Shown: positions 4,625 to 13,113 of the stretch, in pieces
Layout: each line of letters opens with the position of its first letter
Position numbering within the stretch: the first letter of the stretch is position 1
From: Acidimicrobiia bacterium
GTDB lineage: Bacteria > Actinomycetota > Acidimicrobiia > Acidimicrobiales > Bin134
Assembly (NCBI GenBank): GCA_022826705.1
Contig: JAJDUJ010000024.1
Location: forward strand, 1-64,000
Reading direction: 5' to 3'
DNA length: 64,000 bases
The notes under the pieces: model-generated
What the model was told of the DNA's origin: nothing
The model's input: the letters and a program-made list of their open reading frames with translations, nothing else
Database searches by the model: none
Made by a program: the position numbers and the translations under genes

Positions 4625-7600
4625 ATGCGTGCGACAACGGCCAGGCTCATCATTGTGCTGGCTTTCGTTGCGGCTGCTTGTGGCGGCGACTCCGGCGATC
4701 AGCCCGTCTCTGACCCCATCGAGCAGACAGGCACGCCAGCCCCAACCCCATCCCCACCCCTAGAGGCCGTTCCAGAACCATCTCCTAGTCCCACTCCAGA
4801 ACCAGAGGAAGCACCCACGCCCACCCCTGAACCCACGCCACCACCAGTGGCCGAGGCCAGCCCACCGCTCGTTGAGGAACTGAAGACCGTTGCCTTGAAC
4901 CTCTCACATACATGCTGGTCACGACCGAACGGCCCGGTTGCCTGCTGGGGATCGACGGAAGGTGGCGCAACAGATGGGCCCGACAGCCAGTTCACAGCTC
5001 TCGTCGGGGGCATCGACTTCTCGTGCGGAATTCGACTCGACCAGTCCCTTGAATGCTGGGGTGATCAGCGCTTTTCAAGTGGCTTGGTCAACGTTCCCTC
5101 TGGGTCCTTTATCCAAATCACGGCCGGCGACGATCACGTCTGCGCATTGGATATCCATGGAAAGGCCAGGTGTTGGGGGGATTCGTGGGAGGTGCCTGGA
5201 TCCTTGAACCCTCCGTATGCGAAGTTCACCCAGCTGACGACAACCCGCCATGGAGTCTGCGGCCTGCGAGAAGACCAGACAATTGTCTGTTGGGGAGAAG
5301 ACATATTTGAGCAAGGCTTGCTGAACCCACCCGAGGGCCGATTCCGGTATTTGACAGCTGAAGGCGGAGCTGGATTTGTATGTGCGATTCGAATCGATGA
5401 CACAGTCGCTTGCTGGGGTCGTAACGACATAGGTCAAACCGCAGCTCTAGACGGGCCGTTTGCCACGATATCCCTTGGGTCATTCCATGTTTGCGGCCTT
5501 CGGCCCGATCATTCCGTAGATTGTTGGGGCAGCAACCGGGATGGAGCTACCCAGCCGCCCACCGGAGCATTTAAGACTATCTCTGGCGCCAATGGATTTA
5601 CCTGCGGCCTCCGCCCTGACGACTCCGTCGAGTGTTGGGGGGACAGCTGGTTCGAAGTTACCGACCCGCCCGAAGGGGCGTTCTCGCAGATTGTCGCATC
5701 CGACTGGGAGGCTTGCGGTCTACGGGCCGATGAGACGCTGGAATGCTGGGGTCGCATGAATTACGGATTCTCGGACATCCCTGAGGGGACGTACACGGCC
5801 ATATCGAGAGCAATCCCTGTAGGCGGCGAGTCCCACGGGCATTTGTGTGCCTTGCGAACAGATCAGACCATTGCCTGCTGGGGCGACAACGGTGAGAGAC
5901 AATCCGAACCGCCAGACGGCCAGTTCATCGCCGTTGCCACAAGTTTTGAGCACTCATGTGCCATCAGGGTGGATGGAAGCGTTGTTTGCTGGGGAACCAG
6001 CTACTGGGACGATCATTCGATTCCCGATGGCAGATTCACTTCCATCACCGCCGGTGATTACCACGTCTGCGCCCTTGAGCGCAGTGGAGAGGTGAAGTGC
6101 TGGGGTGGCAGTAGCTACGGGCAGCTCAACGTCCCCGATGGCCAGTTTGCCGCCATAAGGGCACAAGATGGGTTCACCTGCGGCTTGCGCCTAGACGGCA
6201 AGGCGGAATGCTGGGGGACAGACACGTGGAACATTGATGATGCTCAAGACCTGCTTGATCCGCCTGAAATTTCTTTTGCTGAGATTTCCTTGAGCACTCA
6301 CCGCGCCTGTGGGCTTCTCCAAGATTCGACAATTCTCTGCTGGAACCAGCGGGGGGAGTTCATCGCCGAACAGCCTGGTAAACGATTCCGCTCAATTTCA
6401 GTTGGGGGTGGCTCCTTGATTTGTGGAGTGCTCCTGGACAACACAGCTGACTGCTGGCATCCCTATGGGCACTTGGACATGGAACCCCCTGAGGGGCAGT
6501 TCACCGCGATAACAGCAGGGGCAAGTTACGCATGCGGAATCCGCATGGATGGAATCATCCTTTGCTGGGGAAGACCACCTGGATTCACAGCGCCCCCGGA
6601 CGACGTCGTGGTCGTTGGGCACGATGCGCCACCCACATTCACAGAATCTCAACCTTCCCCCCTCCAGACATCCGAACCTTCTGGGATTTCCGTCGACCCG
6701 CCAACTCCCCAATTTGACGACGAACGCTTTGTCGCTGTTTCAACTGGTGATTGGCAGACATGTGGGCTCCGAGGAAATGGGCACATCGCATGCTGGGGTT
6801 TGAACCGCTTCGGACAAACGGATGCGCCGAACGGAGAATTCACTGCGATATCCGTCGGAGAAGAGCATGCCTGTGCAATTCGGACAGACGGTACTGTCGC
6901 CTGTTGGGGATACGACCAACAAGGACAGTCAAGCCCTCCAAACGATCAATTCCTAACCATTTCGGCCGGCGGACACCACACCTGTGGCATCCGCACTGAC
7001 AACACGCTGGCCTGCTGGGGAGACGATGGCTGGGACGTAGGTGAGTTGGATTATGAGCAATTGCTGTCTGATGCGCCCGAGGGCGAGTTCACTGCCGTTT
7101 CAGCTGACGATGAACACACCTGTGCAGTGCGTTCTGATGGGAGGATCATTTGTTGGGGTCGCAACGACTTTGGGGAACTCAACGCGCCGAGAGGTCAGTT
7201 CGTTGCTGTAGAGACCAGTCGAGACCATTCATGCGGTATCAACCCTGACGGCTACATGAACTGTTGGGGCCGCTCCCATACGGGGGCCTTGAATGCGCCT
7301 TATACACAATTCACCCACATGGCAGCGAGCGGGTGGCACACATGCGGACTGCGCTTGGACAACGCCATCATGTGTTGGGGCAGGCGTTTCAACGAGAGAA
7401 TCAGCCAGCCAGACGGCGAATTCCTTTCTGTGACCACATCTGAGGCGAGATCGTGTGGGGTACGGCCTGAAGGCACAATCACCTGTTGGGGACGAGACAA
7501 CTCTGGCTCGGCCATAGAACCCCAAGGCTTGTTTGAGTCGCTTTCGGTATCGGTGGACGGTGGAGTCAGCGAAGGGTACTTCTGCGGGTTGCGCACTGAT

Positions 7601-8326
7601 GGCACGGTCTCGTGTTGGGGAGACAACTCATCTGGTCAGCTAGACGTTCCAGATGGGCAGTTCACAGCAGTTGCTGCCAGCAAGTACGCCGCGTGTGGAA
7701 TCAGACCGGACAGGAGTATCACCTGCTGGGGATCGCTGGACGCTCCGTCAGGCGAATTCCGGTCGATAGCCGCGGGCGGATTTCACTTCTGCGGTATTCG
7801 GGAAGACAGCACTGCAACGTGCTGGGGTGGCAACAACTACGGACAATCTGATCCGCCCGACGGCCAGTTCGCATCAATGGCAGCCGGCGGCTGGCATTCA
7901 TGTGGAATACGAATTGACCAGACCATTGCCTGCTGGGGCACGAGCAACGCCGGCGAATTCGATCCACCTTCTGGACAATTCACGGCCATAGATGCTGGCG
8001 AGCAGCATACGTGTGCCCTGCGAACCGACGGAAGCGCAGCGTGCTGGGGAGTTGACTACTTCGGTGAAACCGATCCACCCAAAGGCCGATTTCTTGCAAT
8101 CTCCGCGGGTGGGTCACGCTCGTGCGGTCTGCGATCTGACGGAATCGGAGAGTGTTGGGGGGGCTACCAGTCGCAAGGACCAAGCCACGCTGATGGCCGA
8201 GTTCTCGCTGTTGAAGTAGGTCCCCGCTACACCTGCGGGATATTGGCAGGCAACGTCATGCAGTGCTGGGGATACCTACCTCGGCTCTCTCCGATCCCAG
8301 ACGGCGTTGAGCACATTCGGCCATAG
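4625..8326 (+). CDS. giant secreted lipoprotein with 29 RCC1-like beta-propeller blades
   Basis: 1233 aa. A lipoprotein signal (hydrophobic stretch ending VAAAC, Cys19) is followed by a Pro/Glu/Thr-rich linker to about residue 75. The rest is a tandem array of about 37-residue repeats with the pattern C-[GA]-[LI]-R-x-D-(4)-C-W-G. I count 29 copies, 15 before and 14 after a Pro/Ser-rich linker at about 655-700. Each repeat has two Cys ten residues apart, consistent with one disulfide per blade outside the cell. RCC1-type propellers usually have seven blades, so the protein could fold as about four propellers in two pairs. It is probably anchored to the membrane and displayed on the surface; binding partner unknown. 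The short gap suggests cotranscription with the cupin. Confidence 0.9.
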   Translation: MRATTARLIIVLAFVAAACGGDSGDQPVSDPIEQTGTPAPTPSPPLEAVPEPSPSPTPEPEEAPTPTPEPTPPPVAEASPPLVEELKTVALNLSHTCWSRPNGPVACWGSTEGGATDGPDSQFTALVGGIDFSCGIRLDQSLECWGDQRFSSGLVNVPSGSFIQITAGDDHVCALDIHGKARCWGDSWEVPGSLNPPYAKFTQLTTTRHGVCGLREDQTIVCWGEDIFEQGLLNPPEGRFRYLTAEGGAGFVCAIRIDDTVACWGRNDIGQTAALDGPFATISLGSFHVCGLRPDHSVDCWGSNRDGATQPPTGAFKTISGANGFTCGLRPDDSVECWGDSWFEVTDPPEGAFSQIVASDWEACGLRADETLECWGRMNYGFSDIPEGTYTAISRAIPVGGESHGHLCALRTDQTIACWGDNGERQSEPPDGQFIAVATSFEHSCAIRVDGSVVCWGTSYWDDHSIPDGRFTSITAGDYHVCALERSGEVKCWGGSSYGQLNVPDGQFAAIRAQDGFTCGLRLDGKAECWGTDTWNIDDAQDLLDPPEISFAEISLSTHRACGLLQDSTILCWNQRGEFIAEQPGKRFRSISVGGGSLICGVLLDNTADCWHPYGHLDMEPPEGQFTAITAGASYACGIRMDGIILCWGRPPGFTAPPDDVVVVGHDAPPTFTESQPSPLQTSEPSGISVDPPTPQFDDERFVAVSTGDWQTCGLRGNGHIACWGLNRFGQTDAPNGEFTAISVGEEHACAIRTDGTVACWGYDQQGQSSPPNDQFLTISAGGHHTCGIRTDNTLACWGDDGWDVGELDYEQLLSDAPEGEFTAVSADDEHTCAVRSDGRIICWGRNDFGELNAPRGQFVAVETSRDHSCGINPDGYMNCWGRSHTGALNAPYTQFTHMAASGWHTCGLRLDNAIMCWGRRFNERISQPDGEFLSVTTSEARSCGVRPEGTITCWGRDNSGSAIEPQGLFESLSVSVDGGVSEGYFCGLRTDGTVSCWGDNSSGQLDVPDGQFTAVAASKYAACGIRPDRSITCWGSLDAPSGEFRSIAAGGFHFCGIREDSTATCWGGNNYGQSDPPDGQFASMAAGGWHSCGIRIDQTIACWGTSNAGEFDPPSGQFTAIDAGEQHTCALRTDGSAACWGVDYFGETDPPKGRFLAISAGGSRSCGLRSDGIGECWGGYQSQGPSHADGRVLAVEVGPRYTCGILAGNVMQCWGYLPRLSPIPDGVEHIRP

Positions 8327-9752: not shown

Positions 9753-10301
9753 TCAGCTCTGGCCCGTCAGCGCGGCCAAGACTTTGGGAGCCATGATCTC
9801 CGCTAGATCCAAGCACTCCTCTTTGGACCAGATGGCGATGGGAACCCACGGATAGTCGACGGTTAGAAACTCGTAGTCGGGGCATCCGCTGACTCGGGCG
9901 ATGGCCTGGGCCGATCCCCTCATCTCCTCATGGACGATGGCGATGCTGGGAACACCGGCCCACTCCAACTCCACTGCGTCCCGCAAACTGCGGGCACTAC
10001 AGCTGCCTCAACCGCCGAAGCCAGTGATGGCGACGGTTGCCTCCTCGGTCAACCGACTCCAGTCTCCCGGATCAGGGGGAATGGACACCGAGCTCTTGAC
10101 CACCTTGAGCGGGGCTTGTAGATCGCTCAACTTGTTCAGCTCGTCATAGAGCGCATCCAGGAAGATCTCCCCCTCGCCGAGGCCGTTGGCCACCAAAGCG
10201 ACGACCGCCCCGTCCAAGCTGGCCGGCCGGGGAGAAAAATCATGGTCGTCGGTGCGGTCGAACGGGCCCGAGGTGGGATCGAGGCCGATGAGGGTCGTCA
10301 T
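9753..10301 (-). CDS. UGSC family selenoprotein (in-frame TGA read as selenocysteine)
   Basis: Two same-frame open stretches, 97 codons (10301-10011) and 84 codons (10007-9756), are separated only by TGA at 10010-10008. Reading the TGA as Sec gives a 182-aa protein with a continuous Rossmann-like pattern: the beta strand VAITGFGG runs into U-G-S-C, then SARSLRDAVELEWAGVPS. U-G-S-C is the motif that names the UGSC (seleno)protein family, first noted in marine metagenomes. A hairpin with a GU-containing loop follows the TGA (separate entry). A thiol/selenol redox role is inferred; no reaction is established. The partner gene lies 39 bases upstream. Alternative: a nonsense-mutated Cys homologue, which the hairpin and preserved downstream frame argue against. 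Confidence 0.85.
9978..9997 (-). promoter_or_regulatory. bacterial SECIS-like stem-loop for the UGSC selenoprotein
   Basis: On the coding (minus) strand, five perfect GC-rich pairs (CCCGC/GCGGG) close the pentaloop AGUUU. Two more pairs (GU/AC) follow below a single bulged G. Counting from the base after the TGA, the loop G and U fall at +20 and +21. As I recall the E. coli fdhF SECIS, its loop G-U has the same offset and a bulge sits on the same 5' side. These are the features SelB recognises. The hairpin lies within the coding sequence, as bacterial SECIS elements do. Confidence 0.7.
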
Positions 10302-10340: not shown

Positions 10341-11324
10341 CTAGGAGATGGGCTCGGTGATGGCGAGGGCGAGGTGGGGTAGCAGGAGCCAGCTGGCCCC
10401 CATGCCCGCTCCCCCGGCGGCCACGATCAAAATGCCCTCGGGTTTTCCGATGCGGGCCATCCGGTCGGTGGCGCTGGTGGCCGGCGCGTTGAGCCGGGGC
10501 CACAGATACTGCTGGATATCTGCTTTCGACCACCCTTCCTCATTGAAGAACCGATGGTGCTCGTGGCCGACCACGATCACGACGTTGCCGTCTTCTCCCA
10601 GCCAAGAGTCCCCAGCGATTCCATTGGCCCGGATATTGGTGACCAGCGTGTCGCAGACCCCCTCGGCATTGCGACTGGTGAAATCGGTGGCCTCGACCAT
10701 CTTCATCAGGGAGTGGACGGTGACCGCGCTCTGCTCAGGGGCTAAACCCCGCTGGACGTGCAGCGGCTCCCATTCGGATGCCTCTTCGTTCTCTCCGAAG
10801 CAGAAGGAATAGCGAGCTGGGGTGGAGTAGCTGGCCCGGTCCAAAAAGCCGGGGATGCCACGGCACACGTTGCGGATCACGAGGCGGAGGGCCCGGCCGA
10901 TGGTGGCGTTGGCCCGAAATCCAGGTCCGAAGCAGCCTGCCCCCGAGGCCACACCCAGTTCATTGCGGATTGGTCCGTTGATGATGACAGCCTGAGCTGC
11001 GCCCGACAGTGTGCCGGTGGTCGAGTGGCAGTTGCCCTTGGGATGGAGATGCGCCCGAACCGCGGCCACCACGGTGGGGAAGTACTCGGGCAAGCAACCG
11101 GCCATGACCGCGTTCGCCGCGGCCTGTTGCGCGGTGCACGTCACCTCTCGGGTCGGCACGGTGCCAAGCACCTCGTCCCCGGAGAGGCCGGCGCGCTCCA
11201 GAAAGGCGGCCACCTTTTCCGGCGTCGGAGGCATGATGGGCAGCCCATCAGTCCATCCCTTTTCGAAATAGTCCTCCACCAAGGCTTCATAGGAGTCATA
11301 GGCGTGCTGGGCGGCCGTCGTCAT
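10341..11324 (-). CDS. conserved partner protein of the UGSC selenoprotein
   Basis: 327 aa, no signal peptide. It has a recognisable N-terminus (EKGWTDGLPIMPPTPEKV) and Cys-bearing segments including VTCTAQQAAANAVMAGCLP, CHSTTGTLSGAAQAV, GAGCFGPGFRANATIGRA and VRNVCRG-like residues. The Gly/Ala-rich C-terminus (LIVAAGGAGMGASW) ends near the stop. It is upstream of the UGSC gene by 39 bases on the same strand, so the two are almost certainly cotranscribed. I recall proteins of this type recurring beside or fused with UGSC domains, which suggests a two-component redox or C-S/C-N cleaving enzyme. That is inference; the catalytic activity is not known to me. Confidence 0.7.
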   Translation of the reverse strand: MTTAAQHAYDSYEALVEDYFEKGWTDGLPIMPPTPEKVAAFLERAGLSGDEVLGTVPTREVTCTAQQAAANAVMAGCLPEYFPTVVAAVRAHLHPKGNCHSTTGTLSGAAQAVIINGPIRNELGVASGAGCFGPGFRANATIGRALRLVIRNVCRGIPGFLDRASYSTPARYSFCFGENEEASEWEPLHVQRGLAPEQSAVTVHSLMKMVEATDFTSRNAEGVCDTLVTNIRANGIAGDSWLGEDGNVVIVVGHEHHRFFNEEGWSKADIQQYLWPRLNAPATSATDRMARIGKPEGILIVAAGGAGMGASWLLLPHLALAITEPIS

Positions 11325-11333
11325 GCTCTGATG

Positions 11334-11795
11334 CTAAAGCTCGTGGCGGGTGGTCTCCCATACAGAACGGATAGCGAAACTGGATCTGAGTCGGCCTACA
11401 CCACTGAAGCGGGACAGATATTGATTGTGGATTCGCTCAAAGTCGCGTTGGTCGGCCACAGCAAGGTGGAGGAGGTAGTCGGCGTCACCGGCCATCAAGT
11501 GGCAGGACATGACCTCGGGGCACTCCACCACTTCCTTCTCAAACTGGCGGAGATTCGCCTCGCTCTGGCTCACCAAGGAGATTTCAACGAAGACATCGAG
11601 AGAGCGGTTGATGGCTTCGGGATCGAGGATCATCACGTACCCGGCAATCACACCGTCGGTTTCGAGGCGCCGGACCCGCCGATAACAAGCCGACGGCGAC
11701 AGCCCCACCCGGTCGGCGAGTTCCGCGTTCGACATCCGTGCATCGCTCTGGAGTTCGTTGAGGATTGATCGATCGATTGAGTCCAAGTCCGACAC
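11334..11795 (-). CDS. Lrp/AsnC family transcriptional regulator, probable AldR-type
   Basis: 153 aa from GTG 11795, chosen because AAGGAGG sits about seven bases upstream; the frame stays open to 11825 without a better site. The N-terminal winged helix-turn-helix (LDSIDRSILNELQSDARMSN, then AELADRVGLSPSACYRRVRRL) is followed by the RAM/AsnC ligand-binding domain with the GDADYLLHLAV strand. Such proteins form octamers that sense amino acids. It is divergent from alanine dehydrogenase across a 184-base AT-rich interval, the arrangement of aldR-ald in mycobacteria, where it controls ald in response to alanine. That role is likely here. Confidence 0.88.
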   Translation of the reverse strand: MSDLDSIDRSILNELQSDARMSNAELADRVGLSPSACYRRVRRLETDGVIAGYVMILDPEAINRSLDVFVEISLVSQSEANLRQFEKEVVECPEVMSCHLMAGDADYLLHLAVADQRDFERIHNQYLSRFSGVGRLRSSFAIRSVWETTRHEL

Positions 11796-11979
11796 TGGTC
11801 TGCCTCCTTGCGACGAGATAAACACTCAAACCTTGTAGAACATAAAATAACCGATAGATTGAATCTATGCGGAGAGATTATTCGCCTATAGGCCTATATC
11901 CCGCATCTTTTCAAGAATTATTCACCCCTATCGCGGATAAAATATCAACATAGCGATCGGTTTGCGGCGGAGGCATGAG
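11796..11979. promoter_or_regulatory. divergent lrp-ald control region with palindromes
   Basis: A strikingly AT-rich island in GC-rich surroundings. It contains an inverted repeat ATAGATT-G-AATCTAT at 11854-11868, a perfect 12-base palindrome TATAGGCCTATA at 11887-11898, and a direct repeat of ATTATTC at 11877-11883 and 11917-11923. The direct-repeat copies start 40 bases apart, close to four helical turns, as expected for an octameric Lrp-type protein wrapping DNA. These are candidate operators for the Lrp regulator; the precise site cannot be assigned by eye. Confidence 0.55.

Positions 11980-13113
<1,134 letters not shown>

Follow-up and report, generated by a model that had tools for sequence, protein, structure and literature searches.

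A UGSC-family selenoprotein gene from Acidimicrobiia, its adjoining partner gene and a remote relationship to glycine and proline reductases

The DNA analysed here, a stretch of 64,000 nucleotides that we refer to as the window, carries on its minus strand (positions 9753–10301) a gene for a protein of 182 residues in which an in-frame TGA at codon 98 (10008–10010, minus strand) is, on the comparative sequence evidence, almost certainly a genuine selenocysteine codon, making this a selenoprotein gene. It is a member of a known selenoprotein family, whose function is now testable. The family has been described since 2008 under the name 'UGSC-containing protein', with 255 sequences in the GOS set that place it among the most abundant selenoproteins of aquatic metagenomes (PMC2398784), and it is listed among the prokaryotic selenoproteins whose functions are largely uncharacterised (PMC13188914). 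A first reading of the window, made from the sequence only, held that selenoproteins are rarely recorded in this lineage; that statement has to be softened, since actinobacterial UGSC selenoproteins have already been published (PMC2398784), among them UGSC-motif proteins of the Geodermatophilaceae (PMC5330540).

The gene belongs, moreover, to a set of six copies in one genome; it is accompanied by a partner gene, and its product is very likely to be remotely related to the selenoprotein subunits of glycine and proline reductase, GrdB and PrdB. In the open-access literature searched we found no report of an expansion to six copies, of an obligate partner, of homology with GrdB/PrdB or of the thioredoxin operons described below.

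The window gene and its selenocysteine codon

The reading frame starts with an ATG at 10301 and stops with a TGA at 9753–9755, with exactly one internal TGA between them. When this TGA is read through, the Pfam profile PF24696 (UGSC) matches residues 7–179 (4.2e-39; score 134.9 bits, cut-off 25), and because the match runs across the TGA the protein on both flanks of the codon must be real. The sequence-only reading, in which the frame is open on either side of a single TGA and this TGA supplies the U of UGSC, is thus borne out. It was also right in taking the terminal TGA as the gene's own stop: the close orthologues L041 and L044 have TAA at the end of the gene, implying that the window gene closes with a normal stop codon. 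The NCBIfam equivalog NF041046, on the other hand, scores 88.2 bits (5.1e-25), below its curated cut-off of 125 bits, and on these profile scores the window copy is to be placed inside the broader Pfam family but outside the equivalog. The expectation that automatic annotation would split the gene into two holds only in part, since Pfam and NCBI already have family models, yet with an NCBIfam score under the cut-off (88 against 125) a split could still occur. The window protein shares with the family as modelled in PF24696 and NF041046 ('UGSC family (seleno)protein') its length, the U/C-G-S/A-C motif and the in-frame TGA, and differs in being a diverged copy that shares its genome with five paralogues.

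The six paralogues lie on six contigs of the host genome and are 21–35% identical to one another. Every one of them contains a single TGA, which falls on the U of its UGSC or UGAC motif. In the same genus UGSC genes occur in 19 of 22 genomes, mostly five to seven in each, and 102 of the 104 matches have one TGA, the exceptions being a site within a run of N (L048/L182) and a fragment of 34 residues. For the window copy itself, 23 orthologues were collected from public genomes, mostly Acidimicrobiia MAGs. On whether cysteine or selenocysteine occupies the UGSC position, the point for which the sequence-only reading proposed an alignment, the TGA is kept in 22 of the 23 orthologues, down to 56% identity, as in the six paralogues, and four natural cysteine forms have TGC or TGT. 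The 22 are all of the readable orthologues; in the remaining one, L048, a scaffold gap of 10 N (6290–6300) falls exactly over the TGA and hairpin. Sequencing error is excluded by the presence of the TGA in these separately obtained orthologues and in all six paralogues. The cysteine of the motif, Cys101, is invariant in 39 diverse UGSC sequences. That six selenocysteine copies of one family have been kept points to substantial selenium use in Acidimicrobiia.

The hairpin downstream of the UGA codon

The codon is followed by a SECIS-like hairpin (9976–9997, minus strand) in which a G-U-U loop (9988–9986) is closed by six pairs, formed by 9994–9989 with 9985–9980. Counting the U of UGA as position 1, the loop is G23-U24-U25, so that its G-U falls at +20/+21 after the codon. 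The Escherichia coli fdhF element likewise has G23-U24, and the fdhF offset cited in the sequence-only reading agrees exactly with the fdhF sequence as confirmed across 5,368 genomes of E. coli. The two elements thus share a G23-U24 loop at equal distance from the UGA, whereas the window hairpin has a different stem sequence, a loop of three bases and no bulged U at position 17. No other of the window's 1,878 TGA triplets, counted over the two strands, is followed by a stem of at least five pairs whose loop lies at positions 23–25 and starts with GT. Rfam gave no match at gathering level in the window. Folding of the single sequence was weak, and not significant, when compared with shuffled sequences (z of −0.8 to −1.3), and the case for a SECIS element rests for this reason on its position, conservation and covariation.

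Synonymous variation among 16 close sequences is seen in 4 of 14 conserved degenerate codons in the hairpin region (codons 98–112), compared with 93 of 115 outside this region (Fisher p = 1.2e-4), and in L049, L050 and L052 a synonymous compensatory swap has converted GCC..CGG to GCG..CGC. In an alignment of 22 diverse TGA forms 86% of the cells are paired, double (compensatory) changes are found in 15 cells against 4.0 expected from shuffles, and the covariation score is 0.277 against 0.105 for shuffled alignments, a value reached by none of 500 shuffles and lost when the partner strand is slid. Kinship among sequences can lift scores above those of shuffled alignments, but the synonymous constraint, the cysteine forms and the slide control all agree; in the four natural cysteine forms no stem was found at the hairpin site. 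This conservation is strong evidence that the hairpin 3′ of the UGA is under selection. In two of the six paralogues (L021 and L025) the hairpin has a CCG loop at positions 23–25 instead of GU, like the hairpin in the host selD gene, and the SelB protein of this lineage may accept both loop types.

Selenocysteine machinery

The genes for selenocysteine insertion, whose absence would have told against the sequence-only reading, are all present in the host genome (3.45 Mb in 31 contigs; 95% complete). Contig C27 carries adjoining selA (4.8e-120) and selB (3.1e-82) genes together with tRNA-Sec (68.6 bits; UCA anticodon as assigned by ARAGORN), and selD (2.9e-106) is found on contig C10. Across 396 genomes of the phylum, selA is present in 22 of the 23 genomes with a TGA-bearing UGSC gene, compared with 236 of 396 overall (p = 8e-5). 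The sole TGA-form genome without a selA match is G036, the assembly of which is 94% complete, and in G102 and G150, for which only TGA-free UGSC forms were found, there is likewise no selA match. Decoding of UGA-98 as selenocysteine, for which SelB, charged tRNA-Sec and the hairpin would act together, is supported by these findings. A reading of the TGA as a real stop, within a decaying pseudogene or between two separate short genes, could appeal to a TGA-broken frame as the usual mark of decay but is highly improbable, the comparative data weighing strongly against it: orthologues that are 56–99% identical keep the TGA and have a 3′ half equally constrained as protein, the same codon is present in six paralogues, and the compensatory changes in the RNA are accompanied by complete machinery.

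The selD gene (L018; C10:53799–54743, minus strand) also has a TGA within its own frame, and the hairpin with the CCG loop comes after it; host selenophosphate synthetase is thus predicted to be a selenoprotein. A further candidate selenoprotein of the host is the product of a GRDB/PrdB-like PF07355 gene (L095; C30:105120–105536, minus strand), which has an in-frame TGA at the catalytic position in the sequence TPVUPLC.

An adjoining partner gene

Immediately upstream of the UGSC gene (10341–11324, minus strand) is a gene for a protein of 327 residues that matches no Pfam or NCBIfam family. A homologue of this partner adjoins all six host UGSC copies and is present at practically every UGSC locus examined, either upstream or downstream and, except in L052, in the same orientation. 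Among the 396 phylum genomes it occurs in all 27 that have an above-cut-off UGSC match and in only one of the 369 others (G183). In Variovorax boronicumulans the two proteins are naturally fused in a single protein of 545 residues, and the 'Unknown_1' domain to which UGSC was found fused in the GOS study (PMC2398784) is likely to be the partner. This combination of co-occurrence, adjacency and natural fusion supports an obligate two-component enzyme, and we are highly confident, to judge from gene content, that UGSC and partner constitute an obligate two-gene module.

Among the residues conserved in the partner are DGLP, MAGC77, R144, C175 and E178. A sequence search of the PDB gave no relative of either the UGSC protein or the partner, and the structure model of the partner is poor (pLDDT 64.7), with no trustworthy fold match. 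Identity with the pyruvoyl subunit PrdA/GrdE was considered and rejected, there being no sequence match to PF09338 members; the Asn98-Cys99 pair of the partner is not conserved, with Cys99 in 10 of 41 sequences. In G183, the genome with no detectable UGSC gene, two long frames of 664 and 782 residues (L181; contig C272) contain four partner-like matches and are apparently doubled partner domains.

Relationship to glycine and proline reductases

When the UGSC profile was compared with that of the PF07355 (GRDB) selenocysteine domain from the same phylum, hhalign gave a probability of 94.6% and a score of 54.1, with selenocysteine aligned on selenocysteine and the catalytic residues in register; control profiles (reversed, 100 column-shuffled and unrelated) reached at most 1.5% and a score of 19.5. 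With HMMER none of 15 UGSC members matched PF07355 at E ≤ 10. HMMER alone being blind to it, the relationship is one of remote homology rather than family membership, and the UGSC domain is very likely to be a remote homologue of the C-terminal selenocysteine domain of GrdB/PrdB. The two have in common the selenocysteine domain and an 'E..GIP' segment after the selenocysteine, and the association with thioredoxin genes is found in some UGSC relatives also. In contrast to GrdB/PrdB, however, UGSC proteins are about half the length, have no direct PF07355 match and are not accompanied by a PrdA/GrdE pyruvoyl subunit. The corresponding family, PF09338, is absent from the host genome and the partner is unlike PrdA/GrdE, implying that the substrate-activating half would have to differ. 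GrdB and PrdB combine a selenocysteine nucleophile with dithiol reduction, although their mechanism is itself not fully settled (PMC10298544, PMC13188914). A PDB sequence search returned no relative of the GRDB selenocysteine domain.

The predicted structure of the UGSC protein (pLDDT 83.8) is an alternating (β-α)5 arrangement in which Sec98 lies between strand 3 and the helix that follows. Its structural matches are with flavodoxin-like, receiver and Rossmann-like proteins, not with thioredoxins, the best having Z = 9.8 (a designed protein) and natural proteins 8–9. As these matches are middling, only a fold class is claimed, and the model suggests that this is flavodoxin-like rather than thioredoxin-like.

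Possible electron supply and genes beside other copies

Thioredoxin system genes accompany the pair in some relatives. A plasmid of Arthrobacter sp. ERGS1:01 has the operon trxB-trxA-partner-UGSC, with UGSC in its cysteine form, and a phosphosulfolactate synthase-like gene also belongs to this operon; in Variovorax sp. SRS16 trxB shares the strand of UGSC and precedes it by four genes; and in V. boronicumulans a TrxB-like oxidoreductase is encoded two genes upstream of the UGSC-partner fusion. In haloarchaeal relatives the UGSC and partner genes occur without trx. No trx gene was detected in the vicinity of the six host loci, and among 32 further loci of the phylum just one has such a gene, which is TrxB-like. 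The genes beside the other host copies are catabolic, encoding SDR, luciferase-like monooxygenase, amidohydrolase, CoA-transferase and SnoaL-like proteins and transporters. The Arthrobacter UGSC protein (L144:6938–7753) is in addition extended at its C-terminus by a segment similar to a NifU-like domain (4e-6).

Proposed function

What reaction might such a pair of proteins catalyse? We know of no reaction assigned to any UGSC protein. Taken together, the partner, the link with GrdB/PrdB and the thioredoxin operons of the cultured Arthrobacter sp. ERGS1:01 and Variovorax lead to a definite enzyme hypothesis. The best overall explanation, and one that we consider reasonably probable, is a thioredoxin-recycled, GrdB-like reductase made up of two proteins, UGSC and its partner. 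The UGSC protein would form one half of this two-component enzyme and the 327-residue partner the other. We infer a GrdB-like nucleophilic role for the selenocysteine: Sec98, as a selenolate at the N-terminal end of an α-helix, would attack an activated carbon in a small organic molecule, the substrate, bound jointly with the partner. Cys101 would then resolve the selenium adduct, and dithiol reduction, by thioredoxin and thioredoxin reductase, would regenerate the reduced Se–S pair. The chances that the pair has a thioredoxin-linked reductase activity seem to us evenly balanced. Against the model stand the rarity of trx genes beside the copies of this host and phylum and the lack of a PrdA/GrdE-type subunit. 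The six diverged host copies could each act on different substrates.

Of the two other functional explanations that we have weighed, the stronger, though improbable, is a non-reductive enzyme such as a lyase, hydrolase, racemase or carbon–sulfur/halide lyase, with Sec/Cys98 as covalent nucleophile and electrons needed only to keep this residue reduced. The catabolic genes beside the paralogues and the lack of trx genes at most loci would be natural for an enzyme of this kind, but GrdB and PrdB, to which the domain is related, are both reductive, and an invariant Cys101 is what would be expected of a resolving thiol. Somewhat less likely again is a general thiol-disulfide oxidoreductase, or a peroxide or antioxidant protein, of thioredoxin-like fold, in which the U-x-x-C redox motif acts on protein disulfides. 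The motif itself, the thioredoxin-like fold proposed in 2008 (PMC2398784) and the thioredoxin genes near some relatives are consistent with this, but the predicted (β-α)5 model places the selenocysteine after the third strand and does not match thioredoxins, the profile aligns with GrdB/PrdB, and an obligate partner and catabolic neighbourhoods are better suited to a metabolic enzyme.

On the GrdB-like reading, the glycine/proline reductase superfamily could have a branch that has so far gone unrecognised, formed by UGSC and its partner: a non-pyruvoyl selenoenzyme of two subunits, recycled by thioredoxin, that is actinobacterial, lies outside the classical Stickland fermenters and has six substrate-specific copies in one Acidimicrobiia genus. 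We put this forward tentatively, its prospects being slightly short of even.

Neighbourhood of the window copy

Nine bases upstream of the partner gene is a gene for an Lrp/AsnC-family regulator (11334–11825, minus strand; assigned from Pfam and NCBIfam), which is syntenic in L033–L048 and is the probable operon leader. Divergent from it is an alanine dehydrogenase gene (11962–13113, plus strand; TIGR00518, 1.3e-150), for which synteny is seen in L033–L048 only. Given these neighbours, the window copy might perhaps act on an amino-acid-related compound, but we consider an amino-acid substrate doubtful; as a general functional clue the ald/Lrp neighbourhood was rejected, being confined to the close relatives L033–L048. 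Elsewhere in the window, positions 4625–8326 encode a protein of 1233 residues that consists of RCC1 repeats (PF13540, 1e-118). This protein also has a lipoprotein-like signal at its N-terminus and a linker rich in Pro, Thr and Glu.
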